Below are positions 32,123-42,403 of a stretch of DNA of 42,403 nucleotides, in pieces (position 1 is the first letter of the stretch; every line of letters begins with the position of its first letter). The stretch is from contig DYGR01000026.1 of NCBI GenBank assembly GCA_020724545.1, positions 1 through 42,403 of the forward strand, read 5' to 3'. This DNA comes from Candidatus Methanoperedens nitratireducens. GTDB taxonomy: Archaea > Halobacteriota > Methanosarcinia > Methanosarcinales > Methanoperedenaceae. The notes under the pieces are model-generated. The model was not told the DNA's origin, made no database searches, and saw only the letters and a list, made by a program, of their open reading frames with translations. The position numbers and the translations under genes are program-made.

Positions 32123-34861
32123 TCATTCACTCAGAACCTCACGTATGGTTCTCAATAGTTTTTCAGCAGTATAAGGCTTTGACAAAAAGGCATGTACAGT
32201 AGTGCCTGCAGCTTTTATAAGCCCCCCGTTCCCCGTCAATCCGCTGACTGCGATAATCCTGACACCTGGATTGATCTTACGCAGCGCCCGAATGCATGCC
32301 TGTCCGTCCATGATCGGCATCATCATATCCACAAGAACAACCTCGATCACTTCCCTGTACTGTACATACAGTGCCACTGCCTCTGCTCCATCATTGGCTG
32401 TTATCGCTTTGTATCCATGTGTTTCCAGTACCCTTCTTGTACTCTCACAGATCCTGGCCTCATCATCCACAACAAGAACCAGTTCTCCCTGCCCTGCAGG
32501 CGGTTCATATCGCTGCACCTGTTCTTTCAGTTCTTCAGTTGTTGTAATTGCAGGCAGATATACCTTAAACGTAGTCCCTTTTCCGATTTCGCTGTACACA
32601 TTTACAAACCCTCCATGCCCTTTCACAATTGCATGAACTGTAGAAAGACCCAGGCCAGTACCTTTATCTGGCTCTTTTGTTGTGAAGAATGGCTCAAAGA
32701 TCCGATCCATTACTCCAGGAGAAATACCATCTCCTGTATCCGAGACTGTAATGACGATATAATTGCCAACTCTGGCATCAATATTCATCCTGGCATAGTT
32801 CTTATCAATAAAAAGATTCTCAGCCGACATACTGAGGATACCGCCGTCCTGCATCGCGTCGCGGGCATTCACGCACAGGTTCATCAGGACCTGGTGCAGA
32901 TGTGTGGCATCTCCAGATATAGTCCAGAGGTCTTTCACTGCTTCAGTTCTGATTTCGATCGATCTTGGGAATGTCTCTTTTGCGATCTTCTTGATCTCAT
33001 AGATAAGGTGTTTCACTTGAAGGGTCATACGCTCACCCTCAACCCCCCGTGCAAATGACATAACCTGCTTTATCAGGTCTGCTCCGCGCTGGGTGTTTGT
33101 CTCGATAATATTAAGCAGCCTCTGATCCTGTTCATCTGTGAATTTTTCCCGCAATATCTGCGATGTCAGCATTACTGGCACAAGCACATTGTTGAGGTCG
33201 TGTGCAATACCGCTTGCGAGCGTACCTATGCTCTCCATTCTCTGGGCACGGAAGAACTGCGCCTCGATCTTCTTTTTCTCCGTTATATCAGTGTTGACGA
33301 CAAGTATTGATTTCGGCCTTCCTTCGCTGTCGTGCACCAGGGTCCAGCGGCTTTCTACAATGATCTTTTTACCATTTTTCGTTACCTGCTCAAGCTCACC
33401 GATCCATTCTCCTTCCTCAATCACTCTCTTTCTGGCTTCTATAAGTATGTGTGGTTCTTCTTTATATAGAAGCTCATCTGCTTTTTTACCTGTGATCTCA
33501 TCTGCCGTCCAGCCGTACATGTGCTCAGCTCCTTTATTCCAGTAGGTGATTCTGTGCTCTAGATCTCTAACTCCGATAGCATCACGCGCTTTGTCCAGAA
33601 GAGAAGCCTGCTCCCGTATTTGTTCCTCAGCCTGCCTGCGCTCGGTAATATCCTCTCCAGATCCCAATACAGCGATAATTCTTCCTGTTTCGTCCCTCAA
33701 TACAGAATTGTGCCATGCAATTAATCTCTCTTCACCGCTCCTGATCAGAACAGGATTCTCATAGAATTCAACAGGTTCAATATCTCCAGCCATCAGCTTG
33801 TTAAAAACAGCCTTTATGTTATCCCTTATCCTCTGTGGGATAAAGGTATCAAACCAGTTTTTGCCCACTATTTCATTTTCATTATATCCTAAAATATCAC
33901 AGCCTTTTTTATTTACCAGGGATACTTTTTGATCAGCATCAATAACCACCAGTGCAACTCCTGCAATATCGAGATACTTTTTTGCCTTATCACGTTCATT
34001 TTTAAGTGCCTCCTTGGCGCGCCTGCGCTCTGTGATGTCGGTATCAGCACCGCGGTAACCTGAAAGATCACCCCTCTCATCCAGGATCGGCATACCGCTT
34101 GTTTTCAGGATAACGATATTGCCGTTCTTATGCACGCTCGGATTAACAAAGCCCCTGAAGGATTCTTTCCTGGCAAAATTCTCAAATGCTGCTTCTTTTA
34201 GCTCTTCTCTTACATCTGGCGCAAAAAAATCATAAAAATGCTTTTTTCCAACAATTTCATGCGGCTTATAGCCAAGTATTTTCTCAATGGCAGGACTTGA
34301 ATAAGTATACAAACCATCAGCATCGACTTCCCAGATCCATTCACCCGCGCTTTCTGCAATCTGCCTGAAGCGCTCCTCACTCTTTCGAAGTTCCTCCTCT
34401 GCCCTCTTGCGCTCGGTAACATCGCGTGCGACTGCATAGAGCAGATTCTCCTCAACGACAGACCTTGCGGTCCAGACAAGCCACTTATATGAGCCATCCC
34501 TGCACAGGTAGCGGTTCTCAAAGAAGATTGTGTCTGCACCAGTCCTGAGCTTCTGTAATTCGGCATCTGTCGCTTTCCTGTCTTCAGGATGGACAAATTC
34601 AACAAAGGGCTTTGACTTGAGCTCATCTCCTGTAAAGCCCAGTGTTCTTTCCCAGACAATGTTCAGTTTCTTTATATAGCCATCAAGACCTGTAATACAG
34701 AACATATCGAGTGAGAGGTTAAAGAACCGCTCAAGTTCTTTCTCAGCCCTGCTGTGTTTTATGATCTCAGCCCGTAAGGCCTCGTTGGTTTTTTTCAGTT
34801 CTGCTATTAGATTTATGAGTTGTTCTTTAGTCTGATCCTCGTTTTTCATCCTATTTACCAT
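32123..34861 (-). CDS. Hybrid sensor kinase: four PAS domains, histidine kinase, receiver
   Basis: The 912-residue cytoplasmic protein begins with a short coiled coil, then PAS domains at about 42-155, 163-282, 290-410 and 418-532. Each ends in a DxTE(R/K)(R/K) linker. A HisKA region follows with phospho-His H554 (GIAHDLNN), an HATPase domain (N-box [23 protein letters not shown]), and a C-terminal receiver (D799/D800, phospho-acceptor D845, K895). No membrane segment is seen, so it senses internal signals. It is the last gene of the Kai-linked block, 68 bases after the preceding kinase gene. Confidence 0.93.
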
Positions 34862-34929
34862 GCGACAAAGTAATATATTAATCCTGGCGGAGATTCCTCA
34901 ATAAAATCTCAAAATCCTGGATATCTCCT

Positions 34930-36468
34930 TTATATTCTGGTTATTTCATATACTCTCAACGGTATTGTGAAATAGAATATCGATCCTTTTCCAGGTTCAG
35001 ACTCAGCCCATATCCTTCCTCCGTGGCGCTCCACGATCTTCTTGCATATCGCAAGGCCTATGCCTGTTCCAGGGTATTTATCTCTTGTGTACTCGCGCTG
35101 GAATAACTGGAAAAGCCGATCGAAGAATTCAGGTGCTATGCCTATCCCGTTATCCCGTACTGAGAATATCCATTCATTCTCCTTAATCCTGGCCGAGATA
35201 TGGACACGCGGTACCTCTTCTCCTCTGAATTTGATACCGTTACTGATCAGGTTCTGGAACAGTTGGACCATCTGGGAATCATCAGCCATAACAGTGGGAA
35301 GAGGATCGTGCGTCACTGCGGCGCCATTGTGCTCAATAGCCACCCCGAGGTTGGTCACTGCCTGATCAAAGACTGCTTCAAGATTAGTAGGCTCAAACGA
35401 CTTGCCCTGCGTGCCGACCCGTGAATACGCCAGCAGATCCTCTATCATCCTCTGCATCCGCGCTGCTCCGTCCACGATATAGGCAATGTACTCATCAGCA
35501 CTCTTATCCAGCTTACCTTTATATCGCCTTGCCAGGAGCCGGGTAAAGCCTGATATCATGCGCAGCGGCTCCTGAAGGTCATGGGAGGCCACATAGGCAA
35601 ACTGCTCTAATTCAGCATTTGAGCGGGCAAGCTCAGCAGTCCGTTCCTGAACCCGCATCTCCAGCCCATCATGCGCCCTGCGAAGCGCCTCCTCCATCCG
35701 CTTGCGCTCGGTGATATCGCGGGCAATGCCAAGACCGCTGATAGCTTTCTCATCATATAACTGCGGTGTTACTGTGAACTCCATAGTTGCATAGCTGCCT
35801 GATTTTGTACGTATGCGCAGTTCAAATCTCTGCGGTGTTTCTCCATTCATGACGCGTCGATAGATCTCATCTACCGAGGATAGATCATCGGGGTGAACAA
35901 TGGGCACAAAGCTCTTATCAATCCATTCAGCACGCGACCAGCCCGTAATTGCTTCAAATGCAGGGTTAAGGGAAGTAATCTTACCCTCCTGGGAGATGGT
36001 GAAGATAATATCCCTTGCGCTCTCAACAAGATTTCGATAGCGCGCCTCAGATTCACGCAGTTCCTCAAGAGCCCGCCTTCTTTCCCTGCGTACCTCTGCT
36101 TCACGCATCTCACGCTCGATTGCAGGGACAAGCCTTGTTAAATTCCCTTTTATGATATAGTCATGCGCGCCTGCCCTCATTGCATCTACGGCTATATCTT
36201 CCCCGATCTTTCCAGATATGATTATGAACGGCAGGTCAAGCCCGCCTCTCTGCAGTACTCTCAAAGCCTCAAACCCGCCAAAATGAGGCATGACATAATC
36301 AGAAATAATGACATCCCATGTCTTTTTTTCAAGTGCCTCGCTCATGGCCTCCGCTGTATCCACGCGCTCAAAGACCGGGTCATAGCAGCCGCAGCGCAGC
36401 TCGTGCACTACCAGTAAAGCATCGTCTTCTGAATCCTCGACAATTAATACACGCAACTGCGTGCCCAT
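34930..36468 (-). CDS. REC-PAS-histidine kinase
   Basis: The 512-residue soluble protein has an N-terminal receiver (E11, D12, acceptor D57, SGKIG), a PAS domain (about 143-256) and coiled coil. A phytochrome-like HisKA with H296 ([15 protein letters not shown]) and an HATPase domain ending FYFTIPLR follow. The receiver at the front means it is itself controlled by phosphate input. Its ATG directly follows the stop of the single-domain response regulator. It is a close paralogue of the kinase at 38197, sharing a 421-bp ungapped block at the 5' end. Confidence 0.93.
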   Translation of the reverse strand: MGTQLRVLIVEDSEDDALLVVHELRCGCYDPVFERVDTAEAMSEALEKKTWDVIISDYVMPHFGGFEALRVLQRGGLDLPFIIISGKIGEDIAVDAMRAGAHDYIIKGNLTRLVPAIEREMREAEVRRERRRALEELRESEARYRNLVESARDIIFTISQEGKITSLNPAFEAITGWSRAEWIDKSFVPIVHPDDLSSVDEIYRRVMNGETPQRFELRIRTKSGSYATMEFTVTPQLYDEKAISGLGIARDITERKRMEEALRRAHDGLEMRVQERTAELARSNAELEQFAYVASHDLQEPLRMISGFTRLLARRYKGKLDKSADEYIAYIVDGAARMQRMIEDLLAYSRVGTQGKSFEPTNLEAVFDQAVTNLGVAIEHNGAAVTHDPLPTVMADDSQMVQLFQNLISNGIKFRGEEVPRVHISARIKENEWIFSVRDNGIGIAPEFFDRLFQLFQREYTRDKYPGTGIGLAICKKIVERHGGRIWAESEPGKGSIFYFTIPLRVYEITRI

Positions 36469-36501
36469 TTATTTCTTCCTCACTGGTGGCGGCGGCTCGT
36501 T
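36081..36501 (-). repeat. 421-bp direct repeat, copy A (receiver region and regulator tail)
   Basis: This segment lines up base for base, at a constant offset of 3339, with 39420-39840. It covers the 5' part of the REC-PAS-kinase gene and the last codons of the response-regulator gene. It reveals a recent tandem duplication inside the signalling cluster. Confidence 0.85.
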
Positions 36502-36921
36502 CAGAACTAACCAGTACAACTCAAGTTCACGCACTGCTTCCACGAATTTGGTGAAGTCCACAGGCTTGCGAATATAGCTATTGGCACCAAACCTGTAGCT
36601 GTTGATCAGATCCTGCTCCTCTCTGGATGAGGTGAGAACGACCACGGGAAGAAGTTTTGTTCGCTTATCGGCACGCATGCGCTTGAGCACCTCCAGGCCG
36701 CTTATCCTTGGCAGTTTCAGATCCAGCAGAATAACTGTTGGCATCTTGCTTATATCGCGACCTGCATGGGTACCTGTGCCGAATAGATAATCCAGTGCCT
36801 CAACCCCATCTTTAGCTACGACCACTTCGTTTGCAATTTTACTCTTCTTAAGCGCGCGCAGTGTAAGCTCAACGTCATCAGGATTGTCTTCAACCAGCAA
36901 TATATCTCCTTTGTTATCCAT
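36469..36921 (-). CDS. Single-domain response regulator (Rcp1-like)
   Basis: The 150-residue protein is a lone receiver: E11/D12 acidic pair, acceptor D67 in VILLDLKLPRISGLEVL, T/S in VVLTSS and K in YIRKPVDF. The long beta4-alpha4 region and lack of an output domain resemble Rcp1-type regulators paired with phytochrome-like kinases. It sits 19 bases after the PAS kinase (36941) and immediately before the REC-PAS kinase, so it probably shuttles phosphate between them. Its C terminus VLNEPPPPVRKK is mirrored by the relic before the 38197 gene. Confidence 0.93.
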   Translation of the reverse strand: MDNKGDILLVEDNPDDVELTLRALKKSKIANEVVVAKDGVEALDYLFGTGTHAGRDISKMPTVILLDLKLPRISGLEVLKRMRADKRTKLLPVVVLTSSREEQDLINSYRFGANSYIRKPVDFTKFVEAVRELELYWLVLNEPPPPVRKK

Positions 36922-36940
36922 CTTTATCCCTCCTCTTCTG

Positions 36941-38200
36941 TTAAAGTGTATAATAAAATGTAGCGCCCTCTCCTACCTTGCCCTGTGCCCAGACCTGCCC
37001 GCCGTGTCTTTGAATGATGCGCTTGACCGTAGCAAGCCCTATACCCGTGCCAGGAAACTCAGTCGCTGCGTGTAGCCGCTGGAAAGGCGTGAAAAGTTTA
37101 TCTGCATATGCCATGTCAAAACCAACACCGTTATCCCGCACGAAATATGCAGGTTTACCCTCGTGCTCTGTAACACCAAATTCTATTTTTGAAATCTTGT
37201 TTTTTGAGGTAAATTTCCATGCATTGCCAAGCAGGTTCTCAAGCACTATCTGAAGAAGCGGGGCATCGCCATACACAACCAGTCGCGGTGCAATGGTAAA
37301 CTCAACCTTGCGCCCGGGTTCTCTTCTCTTAAGTTCTCCTGCAATATTCTTTGCAAGAGAGCTCAGGTCAACCCTCTCACGCTTCATCTCACGTCGTGTT
37401 ACGCGTGAGAGAGACAGCAGATCATCTATGAGCTGCGACATTCTCTGGCTGGCCGCACGCACACGCTGCAGGTAGTCTTTGCCCTGCGGATCTAACTTTT
37501 CTGAATAATCCTCCAGCACCGCCTGGCTGAACCCATCGATACTCCGCAGCGGGGCGCGCAGGTCATGAGAAACAGAGTAGCTGAAGGCTTCCAGTTCGCT
37601 GTTGACAGCTTTGAGCTGTGCAGTACGCTCGATCACGCGGCGCTCCAGATCCTCATTCAGCTTTCTGATCTCTTCTTCAGCCCGCTTGCGCTCGGTCAGA
37701 TCTACTGCAACAAGATAGGTGGCAGATAACCCATCCAACCGCAGGACGTTGATTGAGATGTATGCAGGCACAGGCGTTCCATCCCCTGCCATGAAGGTGA
37801 TTTCTCCCCTGCCGTTCCTGCCCCCTCCTGTTCTGATCCGCCGCAATAACTCCGCAAACCTCGCTCTATCTTTTGGCGATATAAAATGCGTAATATCGGC
37901 ACCCATCACTCTCTCAAGCGGCATCTTGAGCATCCCGGCAAAGCCGTGATTGCAGTAAAGAACAGTATCATCGGATGCAAGCGTAGCCGCCCCCTCCCTC
38001 ATTTCCTCAATAAGGGCACGGTAGGGCTGCTCAGCACCTCTTAATGTATAAACCTGCTCTCCCTGTGCCCCGGTGATTACAAGTGCATCCACCTCGCCGC
38101 TTTTGATAGCGCGCAGCGTCTCTTCGGCTTCTGCAAGCCTCTCGCGAAGTTTCTCAACTTCAAGCTTGAGTTCCTCGCATGTCCGGGCTGTTTCATTCAT
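36941..38200 (-). CDS. PAS-histidine kinase
   Basis: The 419-residue soluble protein has an N-terminal coiled coil (1-35), a short linker with [20 protein letters not shown], a PAS domain (about 60-172) ending [14 protein letters not shown], a HisKA with H212 ([16 protein letters not shown]) and an HATPase domain ([25 protein letters not shown]). No receiver is attached. The start overlaps the upstream kinase stop by four bases, giving tight coupling. It likely passes phosphate to the regulator 19 bases downstream. Confidence 0.92.
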
Positions 38201-39807
38201 GATATCACCCCGTTCTTCCCTCTTGCTGGTATTGTGAAGTAGAACGTCGAACCTCTGCCGAGCTGTGATTCTGCCCAGATCCTGCCGCCGTGGTGCTCAA
38301 CGATCCTCCTGCAGATCGCAAGACCTACGCCTGTGCCGGGGTATTCGCTTACAGCATGCTCGCGCTGGAATATCTGGAAGAGGCGTCCCATAAAATCAGG
38401 AGATATCCCTATCCCATTATCGCGCACAGAGAAGACCCATTCATTCTTCTTTCTTTCGGCAGAAACATGAACACGCGGCGCCTCCTCTCTTCTGAATTTA
38501 ATGGCATTACTGATCAGGTTCTGGAACAACTGGACCATCTGTGAGGCATCGGCCATTATTGCGGGCAGAGGATCATGTGTCACCGTGGCTTTATTTTCCT
38601 CGATATCCACCCCAAGATTAGCCACTGCTTGATTAAATACATCCTCGCAGTTGACCTGCTCAAATGGTTTTGCGTGCGTGCCGATCCGTGAGTACGTAAG
38701 TAGATCCTCGAGCATCTGCTGCATTCTGATAGCACCATCCACTACGTAGCCAATGAACTCATCAGCACTCCTGTCAAGCTTACCTTTATAGCGCCTTGCC
38801 AGCAGTTGGGTGAAGATTGATATCATGCGCAGCGGTTCCTGAAGGTCGTGTGAAGCGATATAGGTAAACTGCTCTAACTCGGCATTTGAGCGCCGCAGTT
38901 CCTCCTCAGTCCGCTTGCGCCCTGTGATGTCATAGACCGATGCTAACCAGCCTGTTGTTCTCCCCTGGCCGTCTTTTAGTGGAGACAGCAATATAATTAC
39001 ATCAAAGCGCTCCTCATTGCGCCGCCGAAAGCGCACCTCAATGCCGCCAGGTGGTATCTTGCCGTTAAGAACGTCTCTAAATCCAGCGCTAATGACCTCT
39101 ACATCCTCAGGCGGCCAGTACACAAAGGGAGGCATGGCCCCTATCAATTCTTCCTCGCTCCACCCCACCATCTTGCAGAAGGCAGGATTGACATAAATTT
39201 GCCTGCCATCCAGATCCACTGCAGCTACGCCGCCGGGCATAGAATCCTCTATTGCTTTGCGAAAGGCGTGTTCAGATCTGATCGCCTCTTCTGCCCGCAT
39301 GTGCTCGGCTATCTCATCCCGCAAGGCCTCGTTTGCGCGTGCCAGCTCTGCCGTCCGTTCCCTGATTCTAATTTCTAACTCATCGTATGCTCTGCGCAAT
39401 GTCTCATCAGCCTGCTTTTTTTCCCTGCGTACCTCTGCTTCACGCATCTCACGCTCGATTGCAGGGACAAGCCTCGTTAGATTGTCTTTCATTATATAGT
39501 CATGCGCCCCTTCCCTCATTGCTTCTACGGCTGTATCCTCCCCGATCTTTCCGGATACGATTATGAACGGAAGGTCAAGCCCGCTTCTGTGCAAAAGCCT
39601 GAGTGCCTCTAATCCGCCAAACCGAGGAATGACATAATCTGAAATAATAACATCCCATGTCTTTTTTTCAAGCGCCTCGCTCATGGCCTCCGCTGTATCC
39701 ACGCGCTCAAAGACCACCTCATAGCAGCCGCGGCGCAGTTCGCGCACTACCAGCAGGGCATCGTCCTCTGAATCCTCTACAATTAATACACTAAGCGGAG
39801 TACCCAT
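38197..39807 (-). CDS. REC-PAS-histidine kinase next to kaiB
   Basis: From the ATG at 39807 the protein has about 536 residues. It carries a receiver (EDSEDD, acceptor D in [12 protein letters not shown]), a coiled coil, a PAS domain ([20 protein letters not shown] onward), a HisKA with H in [16 protein letters not shown], and an HATPase ending [15 protein letters not shown] at 39815-39820 lies 7 bases before this ATG, so I prefer it over the TTG at 39849. The frame is open up to that TTG because it runs through the relic of a response-regulator gene. It lies 70 bases after kaiB and is a paralogue of the kinase at 34930. Confidence 0.92.
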
Positions 39808-39840
39808 CTGATCACTCCTCACCAGCGATGGCGGCTCGTT
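39420..39840 (-). repeat. 421-bp direct repeat, copy B
   Basis: Counterpart of 36081-36501 with no gap in the alignment. Its outer part (39808-39840) is non-coding relic in this copy, whereas in copy A it is the end of a working response-regulator gene. Confidence 0.85.
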
Positions 39841-39849
39841 CAAAATCAA
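39808..39849 (-). pseudogene. Relic of a response-regulator 3' end fused in frame to the kinase
   Basis: Upstream of the kinase ATG the frame reads ILNEPPSLVRSDQ, matching VLNEPPPPVRKK-stop at the end of the regulator at 36469. The DNA aligns without gaps, including an identical GCGGCTCGTT, and the former TAA stop has become CAG. The rest of that regulator gene is gone; similarity fades beyond 39850. Confidence 0.7.
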
Positions 39850-39876
39850 TATTCGGTCAACATCTCCCTTATAAAT

Positions 39877-40215
39877 TTACTCTTTTTTAAGCGGGCGCAG
39901 GTCAAGCCCCACAAGAACACGCTCGGTCTGGGAGAGATCCCCGATTGTTTTTCTCAAAGGCTCAGGAAGCTTCCGTATTACCGTTGGAACGGCAAGTATC
40001 TGATCATCCTTAGCCCGTTCGGGATTTTTGGTCAGATCGATCACTTCAATCCTGTATTTTCCAGCCAGGTGTTCTTCACATATTCTCTTGAGGTTGGCAA
40101 GGGCTGCATCTGATCTGACTGTTTGTCCGGCAATATACAGTCGCAGCTCCCATACATCAGGCTCTGTCTCCTGTCTTTCGGATTCCTGTAGTTGTGGCTC
40201 TTTTATATCATTCAT
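39877..40215 (-). CDS. kaiB: KaiB-like clock/signalling protein
   Basis: The 112-residue protein has an acidic N-terminal extension (1-20) and a full KaiB domain: [60 protein letters not shown]. The fold-switching thioredoxin-like KaiB binds the KaiC CI ring in cyanobacteria. A strong purine-rich Shine-Dalgarno (AGGAG at 40226-40230 on this strand) precedes the ATG. It follows kaiC by 68 bases in the same orientation and precedes two sensor kinases. No KaiA is encoded. Confidence 0.93.
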
Positions 40216-40283
40216 TTTAACCCCTCTCCTTACGTTGTTATTGTTTATATATATAAGTCCGGGTCTTATATCAACATTTTTGC

Positions 40284-41993
40284 TTACGGAACATCAGCCT
40301 TACGGATGCGTGCTATTTCTTTGCGCACCTCTTCCTGCACTTCCTTCCTGCGCTCCTCTTCCTGGGTGAACTTCCTGAATTCGTCCTCCCTGGTCTCATA
40401 CTCAGCTCGTATAGCGGCGAGCTGCGCCTCTACCGCTTTTCGCTGGCGCTCAAGGTCGCGCTTTTTGCGCTCGATCTCCTCTTCACGCTCAACCTCAAGA
40501 ACCCTATCCTTTGTCTGCTGTGCAACGCGAGCTGTACCTGTAAGTACGCCTGCAGGGCCGGTATACGCATCGATTATATCTATGCCCTGGCCTGTCATGA
40601 GGAATTCGCGTATCTGGTTAGAATGCTCCATGCCGCGGGATTTAAGGATATATATTCCGCGGTTGCGCTCACCGCCTAATTCAATATCGCGCAGCAGAAC
40701 CCATGTATCTATCAGTGATGAGACGCCCATCTCTGTTAATTCAAGAGGGGCTCCGCCGTGTGTCAGATGTGTAAAGAAGGCAGTAATCTTGCTGGCTTTA
40801 AGCATGTCAATAAGACGCGTCAGCATTGATTTAACTTCTGTTTCACTGCCTACAGTGATCAGATTTGTAATCGGGTCAACGATAGCGACAGATGGTTTAA
40901 ATTCATTGATCATTTTATACATCGTTACAAGATGCAATTCCAGGCCAAAGATCGTGGGACGTGCAGCATGGATCTTCAAAAGACCCTGGTTTACATATGG
41001 CTCAAGATCAATACCAACGGTACGCATATTGCGTATGATCTGTCTTGGGGCTTCCTCAAAGGCGAGATAGAGGCACCGCTCACCGCGCTCACATGTTGCT
41101 CTGGCAAAGCTGGCTGCAAGAGTGGTTTTGCCTGTTCCTGCCGTGCCTGAGATGAGGATGCTGCTGCCGCGATAGAATCCCCCTCCCAGCATTGTATCAA
41201 GACGGAGGACTCCAGTTGGGATCCGCTCGGTGGATACATCGTGATCCAGTTCAAGTGAGGTAATGGGCAGCACTGAGATGCCGTGCTCATCTATCAGGAA
41301 CGGATACTCATTTGTGCCGTGCTTTGAGCCGCGGTATTTGACAATGCGCAGCCTTCGGGTTGCGATCTGCCCTTCCACCCTGTGGTCAAGCGTGATCACG
41401 CAGTCCGAGACATATTCCTCAAGTCCGCGCCGTGTAAGTGTTTCTCCACCTCCCCGTTCTCCTGTAATGATTGCGGTCACGCCTTTGGTTTTAAGCCAGT
41501 AGAACAGCCGTCTTAGCTCAGCACGCAGGATGCCCTCATTAGTCAGTGCAGAGAATAGCGACTCGATGGTATCCAGTACAACCCGCTTCGCTCCGATAGA
41601 GTCGATCGCATAGTTGAGGCGGATGAAGAGCCCTTCAAGGTCGTATTCACCCGTTTCTTCGATCTCACTTCGCTGGATGTGAATATAATCAACAAGGAGC
41701 TTTTTTTGTGCCACAAGTTCTTTTAGATCAAAACCAAGTGAAGCAAAATTTTTGATCAGGTCTTCTTCTCTCTCTTCAAATGCAATAAAGACGCCAGGCT
41801 CGTTATACTGGGTCGCACCCCGCACGAGAAACTCCATGGCTATCAGGGTTTTACCGCTTCCAGCCCCACCTGCTACCAGTGTCGGACGTCCTCTCGGCAG
41901 TCCCCCATCCGTGATATCATCCAGACCCCTGACTCCGGTTGGACATTTTTGAAGAACTTCCGGGAATTCGGTATTATCTGTTACTTCGATCAT
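40284..41993 (-). CDS. kaiC: KaiC-type double-domain ATPase
   Basis: The 569-residue protein has two RecA-like KaiC domains. CI (about 13-245) has Walker A GGAGSGKT (42-49) and catalytic E73/E74. CII (about 250-485) has Walker A GTAGTGKT (283-290) and E313/E314. The CII segment [17 protein letters not shown] aligns with the cyanobacterial autophosphorylation loop and places S425/S426 at the S431/T432 positions. A charged coiled coil (495-560) replaces the short KaiA-binding tail. It is first in the Kai-kinase block, with a TATA-like element about 90 bases upstream. Confidence 0.95.
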
Positions 41994-42077
41994 TAGCTAA
42001 CTTCTTCTCCCTGTTTTTTTCAATGAACACTCTGTCATGATTTTAGTGATTCACTCAGTAGATGTCCTCTTCGAATA

Positions 42078-42087
42078 TAAATATACT
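42078..42087 (-). promoter_or_regulatory. Probable TATA box of kaiC
   Basis: TATATTTATA on the minus strand, about 85-94 bases before the kaiC ATG, is the clearest TATA-like element upstream of the signalling block and would give a leader of about 60 bases. A small dyad GTGA-T-TCAC lies between it and the gene, within a TAGTGATTCACTCAG context. Confidence 0.45.
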
Positions 42088-42189
42088 GTATCCTGAGAAC
42101 CCGTCCAATAATTAGACAGATATTAGTGGCAATTTTTTATATAGACCATGAAATCTATAGTTAGGTGCTTAAATAACAGTAAATAAAGA

Positions 42190-42256
42190 ACCGCAGATGA
42201 ACGCGGATTAACGCAGATGCAGGTTATCTGCGTTTATCTGCGTTCATCGGCGGTTA
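42190..42256. repeat. Imperfect inverted repeat, copy 2
   Basis: The left arm AACCGCAGATGAACGCGGAT and the reverse complement of the right arm AACCGCCGATGAACGCAGAT can pair to form a hairpin. The same CGCAGATGAA / CGCAGATAAA units as at 5096-5164 build the arms. It lies between kaiC and the partial kinase. Confidence 0.8.
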
Positions 42257-42353
42257 ATAAAATTGAACATAAAATACGGAAATTTAAGAAATAGGCTATA
42301 GGACACTACCGATTTTTAACTCTTGAAGATAATATGTAGATATAGATAAATGA

Positions 42354-42403
42354 TCATGTTCGTTCACCTTTTCTCACCGGTATCGTGAAATAGAATGTCG
42401 AAC
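42354..42403 (-). CDS. Partial histidine kinase C terminus (runs off the window)
   Basis: The last 16 codons read [15 protein letters not shown] and stop at 42354-42356. The FYFTIP ending is the same as in the kinases at 34930 and 38197, so this is the end of another HATPase domain of the same paralogue family, upstream of kaiC in the same direction. Confidence 0.75.
   Translation of the reverse strand, partial: STFYFTIPVRKGERT

Follow-up and report, generated by a model that had tools for sequence, protein, structure and literature searches.

A KaiC2-type KaiBC block in Candidatus Methanoperedens nitratireducens and an N-terminal module marking a candidate KaiC2 partner kinase

The purple bacteria Rhodobacter sphaeroides and Rhodopseudomonas palustris carry operons composed of kaiC, kaiB and a gene for a PAS-bearing histidine kinase (HK) (PMC4794148), and the clade of tailed KaiC proteins with two serines is described as an hourglass of KaiB and KaiC driven by the ATP/ADP ratio (PMC10076222). 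The kaiC-kaiB-kinase gene context has been published for bacteria (PMC4794148, PMC3164672), and the arrangement itself is not new. Here we describe a related block from an archaeon, found on contig DYGR01000026.1 (C63) of Candidatus Methanoperedens nitratireducens, which was analyzed over its whole length of 42,403 bp (the window) and belongs to a 2.9 Mb genome in 88 contigs with a listed contamination of 5.44%. In this block kaiC and kaiB are accompanied on the minus strand by four kinase genes (HK1-HK4) and a lone receiver, and HK2 bears at its N-terminus a module of about 65 residues that recurs beside kai genes across several phyla.

The window KaiC (569 amino acids, 40284-41993; minus strand, like all features of the block given below) has two ATPase domains (Pfam PF06745 twice) and scores 754 bits against NCBIfam PRK09302, for which the cut-off is 408. 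Its best match in the PDB is the R. sphaeroides KaiC (8dba, E 1.3e-192), with an alignment spanning query residues 15-549 of 569 and thus reaching into the coiled-coil tail; the matches to the Synechococcus elongatus forms are far weaker (E about 1e-104). A C-terminal extension of about 50 residues, as in KaiC2, is indicated both by this alignment to residue 549 and by that of the coiled-coil-like tails with the KaiC of R. sphaeroides KD131. The serine pair S425-S426 aligns with the EE site of 8fwi and is invariant in nine aligned sequences from the genus. The combination of KaiB with absence of KaiA, also expected of KaiC2, holds for the genome, which has four KaiB genes and, as the preliminary description of this DNA had proposed for the block alone, no match to KaiA. 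Since the best solved match of this KaiC is that of R. sphaeroides, we assign it from its sequence to the tailed, two-serine KaiC2 type and not to a specifically archaeal clock; the earlier label of an archaeal Kai system accordingly gives way to a type that is common to bacteria too. By homology with R. sphaeroides, the Methanoperedens KaiC would be expected to form a dodecamer and to pass through an ATP/ADP-driven phosphorylation cycle.

HK2 (36941-38200) combines PAS, HisKA and HATPase domains (Pfam) with the N-terminal module (37982-38176), which comprises a helix, a β-hairpin and the start of the PAS N-cap and has no Pfam match. Its consensus over about 65 residues reads ELxxExExLRxRLxEAxETxxAIRxGxVDAxVVxGxxGxQVYTLKxADxxYRxxIExMxEGAVT. 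Pfam scans of three module copies returned nothing better than E 0.01, and the 25 listed of the 81 NCBIfam matches of HK2 all start at residue 52 or later. For the module together with the PAS domain AlphaFold predicts a helix at residues 8-34 and a hairpin at 39-52 followed by the PAS fold (mean predicted local distance difference test score 90.5, falling to 68-80 around the hairpin), and the 50 matches listed in a fold search with this model are all PAS and LOV proteins. Titles and abstract openings in the literature name no such kinase module, which is weak evidence of novelty as most subscription journals lie outside the coverage; within the same coverage no paper containing both 'Methanoperedens' and 'KaiC' was found.

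HK2 is the sole match to the module in the window genome at E <= 1e-8. The module profile was built from 70 named loci and the window, so that presence in those loci is partly by construction, and the searches of archaeal and Pseudomonadota genomes used a 21-row alignment (A2). Among 392 Halobacteriota genomes, 24 copies were recovered from 18, all of which belong to the 23 genomes positive for KaiB, and 23 of the 24 copies lie within 3 kb of a kaiB. The seven copies found in seven of 180 Pseudomonadota genomes (KaiB is present in 27 of the 180, and the seven include the centre genome, which was selected because of its kai locus) are all situated 80 bp or less from a kaiB. Scores against a KaiC2 profile separate the KaiCs at the six other module loci of this phylum (661-934 bits) from those at 22 module-free kai loci (at most 413). 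In 30 bacterial genomes, which were chosen for a KaiC2 locus and partly used to build the module model, all 32 copies fall at kai-locus coordinates, the informative part being that none occurs elsewhere in those genomes. The kinase of the R. sphaeroides KD131 kaiBC locus (RSKD131_RS21470) carries the module with 57 bits, and three further plasmid-borne alphaproteobacterial kai kinases do so with 60-94 bits. The linkage of the module to kaiB and kaiC2 is thus near-exclusive in the sampled genomes and, given that it extends across Halobacteriota, Pseudomonadota and R. sphaeroides, we identify HK2, on sequence grounds, as a widely conserved KaiC2 partner kinase. This near-confinement to KaiC2 loci singles out one protein, and within it one 65-residue region.

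A search of 60 close genomes for KaiCs of the window kind (69-94% identity, E <= 1e-60) found them in 12 of the 31 that belong to the genus and in none of the others, and a kinase with the HK2-type front module is present at 11 of the 12 loci fetched. Given these two counts the co-occurrence is not a matter of chance, and a neighborhood survey of the sort proposed in the preliminary description finds the genes of the block partly co-conserved with kaiBC in relatives rather than in none. At E <= 1e-120 a KaiC relative was detected in 22 of the 392 Halobacteriota genomes. A survey with named hosts (best 80 of at least 542 relatives) recovered many Bacteroidota along with Pseudomonadota, Thermodesulfobacteriota, Planctomycetota, Myxococcota, Nitrospirota, Chloroflexota and Methanoperedens, and over the best segment the window KaiC is 60-68% identical to those of the bacterial loci listed. 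A KaiC tree of 101 rows, made by a quick method, joined the Methanoperedens KaiCs with one other archaeon (support 80); loci L055-L061, mostly on the same contigs as other loci of the genus, were excluded from this tree and from the KaiB tables. A bacterial origin of the archaeal KaiC was considered and set aside, as the deep branches of the tree are weak and the archaea do not form one clade, so that the tree favors neither direction of transfer. The step in G+C content within the window (0.38-0.48 ahead of HK4, 0.44-0.47 across most of that gene and 0.48-0.52 from 34 kb onwards) is only suggestive as a sign of the origin of the KaiC.

KaiBs from these loci fall into two types, I and II, defined by the midpoint split of a FastTree tree (support 81). 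The window KaiB (39877-40215; Pfam KaiB) belongs by its clade in this tree to type I, the kind adjoining kaiC, and its best PDB match is the R. sphaeroides KaiB (8fwj_M). The exact order kaiC, type I KaiB, type II KaiB, module kinase is seen in 81 of 104 KaiC2 loci; no ordered locus places a type II KaiB between kaiC and the first type I, and in 75 of the 93 cases measured KaiB and the kinase are no more than 30 bp apart. The other three KaiB genes of the window genome reside elsewhere, two as a pair on contig C88 and one on C5, and the neighbors of the C88 pair are the same as in the sister genome G015, despite the listed contamination. This pair of KaiB-II and KaiB-I (L026:9243-10613 in the window genome, G000) is located at a contig end beside a gene for imidazoleglycerol-phosphate dehydratase. 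As G015 has a like pair at the far end of its kinase cluster (L043:2739-3428), the assembly probably breaks within the kai region.

Turning to the rest of the block, the gene directly downstream of kaiB on the same strand, 27 bp on, encodes HK1 (38197-39849), a REC-PAS-HisKA-HATPase kinase whose start is called as TTG, an in-frame ATG 42 bp further on being equally plausible. HK2 is the next gene and is followed directly by the lone receiver (36469-36921; Pfam Response_reg), which we take to be Rcp1-like, then by HK3 (34930-36468), a paralog of HK1 with the same domains, and by HK4 (32123-34861), a hybrid kinase with four PAS domains, HisKA, HATPase and a C-terminal receiver (domains by Pfam). 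All seven genes had been claimed in the preliminary description and are recovered with their domains on the minus strand at the tight spacing proposed, the gaps from kaiC to HK4 being 68, 27, -4, 19, 0 and 68 bp; the composition thus stands, and the order after kaiB is corrected to REC-PAS kinase, PAS kinase, receiver, REC-PAS kinase and hybrid kinase. The at least five two-component proteins it counted are likewise present, though not as equivalents, HK2 being the widely conserved partner and HK1 and HK3 paralogs in an expanded local set. Beyond HK4, after 75 bp, come genes for an isocitrate/isopropylmalate dehydrogenase and a fibrillarin. At the other end of the window the contig cuts the C-terminal end of a further kinase of the HK1/HK3 kind (42354-42403; translated by eye, with a DNA match to sister-species locus L043), hence the kinase block extends past the window. 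The C-terminal half of HK4 is 62% and 66% identical to kaiB-adjacent kinases of the relatives L044 and L049. An inverted repeat of the CGCAGATGAACGCGGAT kind was read by eye upstream of kaiC (42180-42255). Rfam matches in the window consist of two tRNAs and nothing else, and a scan for sigma-70-type promoters, which does not cover archaeal ones, was at chance (13 found against 13.1 expected).

The gene content, KaiC2 type and conservation of the block lead us to favor, as a probable reading, a KaiC2-type KaiBC switch, that is a KaiA-free hourglass or energy-state timer, with a dedicated two-component output read by HK2. KaiC would form hexamers, probably paired via their C-terminal coiled-coil tails, and, by analogy with R. 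sphaeroides, would autophosphorylate at S425/S426 under a high ATP/ADP ratio, with KaiB binding KaiC and helping to reset it. The role of HK2 is suggested by its linkage: it may sense the state of KaiC and KaiB via the module ahead of its PAS domain and pass phosphate to receivers, most simply to the lone receiver, whose gene follows after 19 bp. The remaining kinases (HK1, HK3, HK4 and one or more past the contig end) would be added sensors with REC-PAS or fourfold PAS architectures, which could bring environmental signals into the same receivers or branch from them; the partners and routes of phosphotransfer are guesses ordered by proximity. We know of no use of light by this methane oxidizer, so that energy state, as set by the supply of electron acceptor or methane, would be the likely cue. 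In a methane-oxidizing archaeon a KaiC2 switch with the known sequence hallmarks is improbable as a light clock and may serve to read energy state, and the recurrence of the module beside this switch in many bacteria and archaea hints at how the signal leaves it.

The receivers bear on this reading in both directions. In the Nitrospirota a kai locus has a relative of the lone receiver (54% identity) directly after its module kinase and beyond it encodes, much like the window, a receiver-PAS protein followed by a PAS hybrid kinase (domains by eye). Relatives of the lone receiver also lie within about 1.5 kb of kaiB in all 16 tested Pseudomonadota genomes that bear KaiB without the module, being the best match genome-wide in 14; these genomes use a different KaiC type, and the fetched kai stretches of the other four of the 20 such genomes contain no such receiver. 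Many of these non-KaiC2 loci (L178-L197) combine a lone receiver with a protein of about 270-350 amino acids close to kaiB. Pfam scans of three of these proteins detected a receiver domain in each and no KaiA; they may nonetheless resemble KaiA3. Of the phosphorelay proposed in the preliminary description the kinases and receivers are present; in the strict sense of a multi-step His-Asp-His-Asp chain with a phosphotransfer (Hpt-type) domain it is putative. Pfam finds no Hpt match in the proteins of the block, and partners could lie elsewhere. As to its claim that DNA-binding output is lacking, this stands for the block, which has no match to a DNA-binding domain; in a Methanoperedens relative (L050:10050-10628), however, a receiver protein encoded some 6 kb away from kaiB weakly matches a winged helix, slightly below the Pfam cut-off, and is a possible DNA-binding output. 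Open reading frames resembling it (unscanned) are found at L047:13879-14457 and L051:12269-12850.

A number of observations weigh against the preferred reading. The gene directly after kaiB in the window is HK1 and not HK2. The module is undetectable in 6 of 102 KaiC2 loci with enough contig (a further three of the 105, L089, L094 and L121, being cut by contig ends and excluded), so KaiC2 systems do not all depend on it, and at locus L044 KaiC and both KaiB types are joined by an HK4-like kinase that lacks the module. For one archaeal module kinase (G401:C1:318035-318226), the only unlinked archaeal copy found, the closest KaiB of the contig is 138 kb away. Of 89 module kinases whose contigs extend far enough, only 35 contain a receiver themselves or are followed by one in the adjacent gene, as counted with a profile from the window's own four receivers. 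Nor is the lone receiver a constant partner: nothing in the relative G008, which carries KaiC2 together with a module kinase, matches it at E <= 1e-15, and the two matches in G249 are far from the kai genes. Finally, timing and signal flow in the archaeon are themselves inferred.

The same kinases might instead act on the input side, with HK2 and the REC-PAS kinases sensing redox or gas through PAS domains and setting the state of KaiC and KaiB. PAS domains are indeed present in all four kinases (Pfam), the R. sphaeroides kinase is suggested to be a possible oxygen sensor acting towards the clock (PMC10931921), and KaiA3, a receiver-KaiA chimera, acts in another Kai system (PMC11372060). We nevertheless hold an input role to be unlikely, as the window genome has no KaiA match and as a KaiB-module-kinase fusion in an archaeal locus (L168) resembles the architecture of SasA. 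The latter is a histidine kinase of cyanobacteria that acts in output and is linked to KaiC by a KaiB-like domain. Also counting against an input role, no KaiA-like receiver protein is to our knowledge associated with KaiC2. A still less probable view, to which we give little credence, is that there is no functional link at all and that duplicated kinases piled up locally beside an unrelated kaiBC pair. In its favor, HK1 shares 59% identity with HK3, the kinase cluster of the sister species G015 is larger and rearranged, and the window contig breaks within repeated kinase sequence. Such a pile-up accounts, however, for the expansion of HK1 and HK3 only: the HK2 module is kai-linked across phyla and the lone receiver recurs at kai loci. 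Moreover, three archaeal KaiC2 loci without the module (L162, L163 and L165) have near kaiB a receiver-fronted kinase like HK1 (receiver by eye), and the window hence seems to hold both sorts of kaiB-side kinase, module-fronted and receiver-fronted.

A further proposal, which would refine the output side, concerns the second KaiB: KaiB-II, here on contig C88, would be a permanently thioredoxin-like reader of KaiC that, with the module kinase, does the job of the one-piece cyanobacterial SasA. KaiB-II adjoins the module kinase and KaiB-I adjoins kaiC; a KaiB-II profile finds the N-terminal domain of SasA (6x61_B, E 5.6e-5; 1t4y, E 1.5e-4), and a KaiB-I profile reaches that of 6x61_B alone (E 0.086). 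KaiB-II is predicted in the fold-switched, thioredoxin-like form, at 0.9 Å from the crystal structure 4kun, and among the matches listed for this model KaiC-bound or fold-switch-stabilized KaiB and Lpp1115 come first and SasA next. The natural fusion in L168 (6682-8604; G249, an archaeal one-contig genome) joins KaiB, module, two PAS domains and a histidine kinase in 640 amino acids, and its KaiB part scores 116 bits as type II against 104 as type I. A second candidate fusion (G674, L211:2831-4687), with an N-terminal KaiB half, an MnmA-like stretch (by eye) and a module kinase, is a possible mis-assembly and was left uncounted. On the other side, R. sphaeroides combines the module kinase with only one KaiB, which by score is of type I (132 against 117 bits), and in three Pseudomonadota loci the single KaiB scores about equally for both types. 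The association of type II with the module (two-by-two table 93-1-3-5 over 102 loci, Fisher p 3.9e-6) is not significant once relatedness is respected, a tree-aware test leaving 5 to 6 independent pairs with a median p of 0.625. These single-KaiB loci and this test weaken the idea that the module requires KaiB-II, which we do not retain. Given a broad alignment, AlphaFold returns the fold-switched form even where a KaiB favors its ground state, and types I and II are not cleanly told apart by the published fold-switch residues of the R. sphaeroides KaiB (both PMC10808063); two of the five models, made for KaiB-II, are of low confidence.

Given that R. sphaeroides has one KaiB at this locus, that the tree-aware test shows no signal and that AlphaFold is biased for KaiB, such a 'split SasA' is a hypothesis, and we consider it a doubtful account of the second KaiB. 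The broader combination, in which the 65-residue module marks a previously unrecognized family of KaiC2-reading kinases in Bacteria and Archaea, including the R. sphaeroides hourglass, and kaiC2-kaiB-kaiB-kinase loci have the second KaiB as a free-standing SasA-like reader, is put forward tentatively, with a slightly better but still low expectation. For the preferred reading, with HK2 at the output of a KaiBC switch, R. sphaeroides is an apt test host, its KaiC and KaiB having already been purified and solved.

Among known systems, R. sphaeroides KD131 resembles the window in having a tailed two-serine KaiC, a KaiB and a kinase directly downstream with the same N-terminal module, and the likeness to R. 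palustris rests on the operon as described in PMC4794148. R. sphaeroides differs in having one kinase, annotated as of the HWE type, whereas the window has at least four kinases and a lone receiver in an archaeal host. In Legionella pneumophila, the kai operon of which presumably comprises two kaiB genes and a kinase, the KaiB homolog Lpp1115 (4kun) shows the lowest root-mean-square deviation to the KaiB-II model among the 50 matches listed. With the cyanobacterial SasA the likeness is one of layout, seen in the L168 fusion, and in the window itself Pfam finds no KaiB-family match in HK1-HK4, which sets these apart from SasA. The KaiC-like signaling hubs of archaea likewise place a KaiC-family ATPase beside two-component genes (PMC5847659), but the window KaiC is a full-length KaiC2 paired with KaiB, one of 23 KaiC-family matches in its genome, and is about 30% identical to the two other two-domain KaiCs there (C81 and C87), as against 69-94% to those of the genus. 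In these comparisons Methanoperedens appears to carry the same simple KaiB-KaiC energy or time switch as the purple bacteria.

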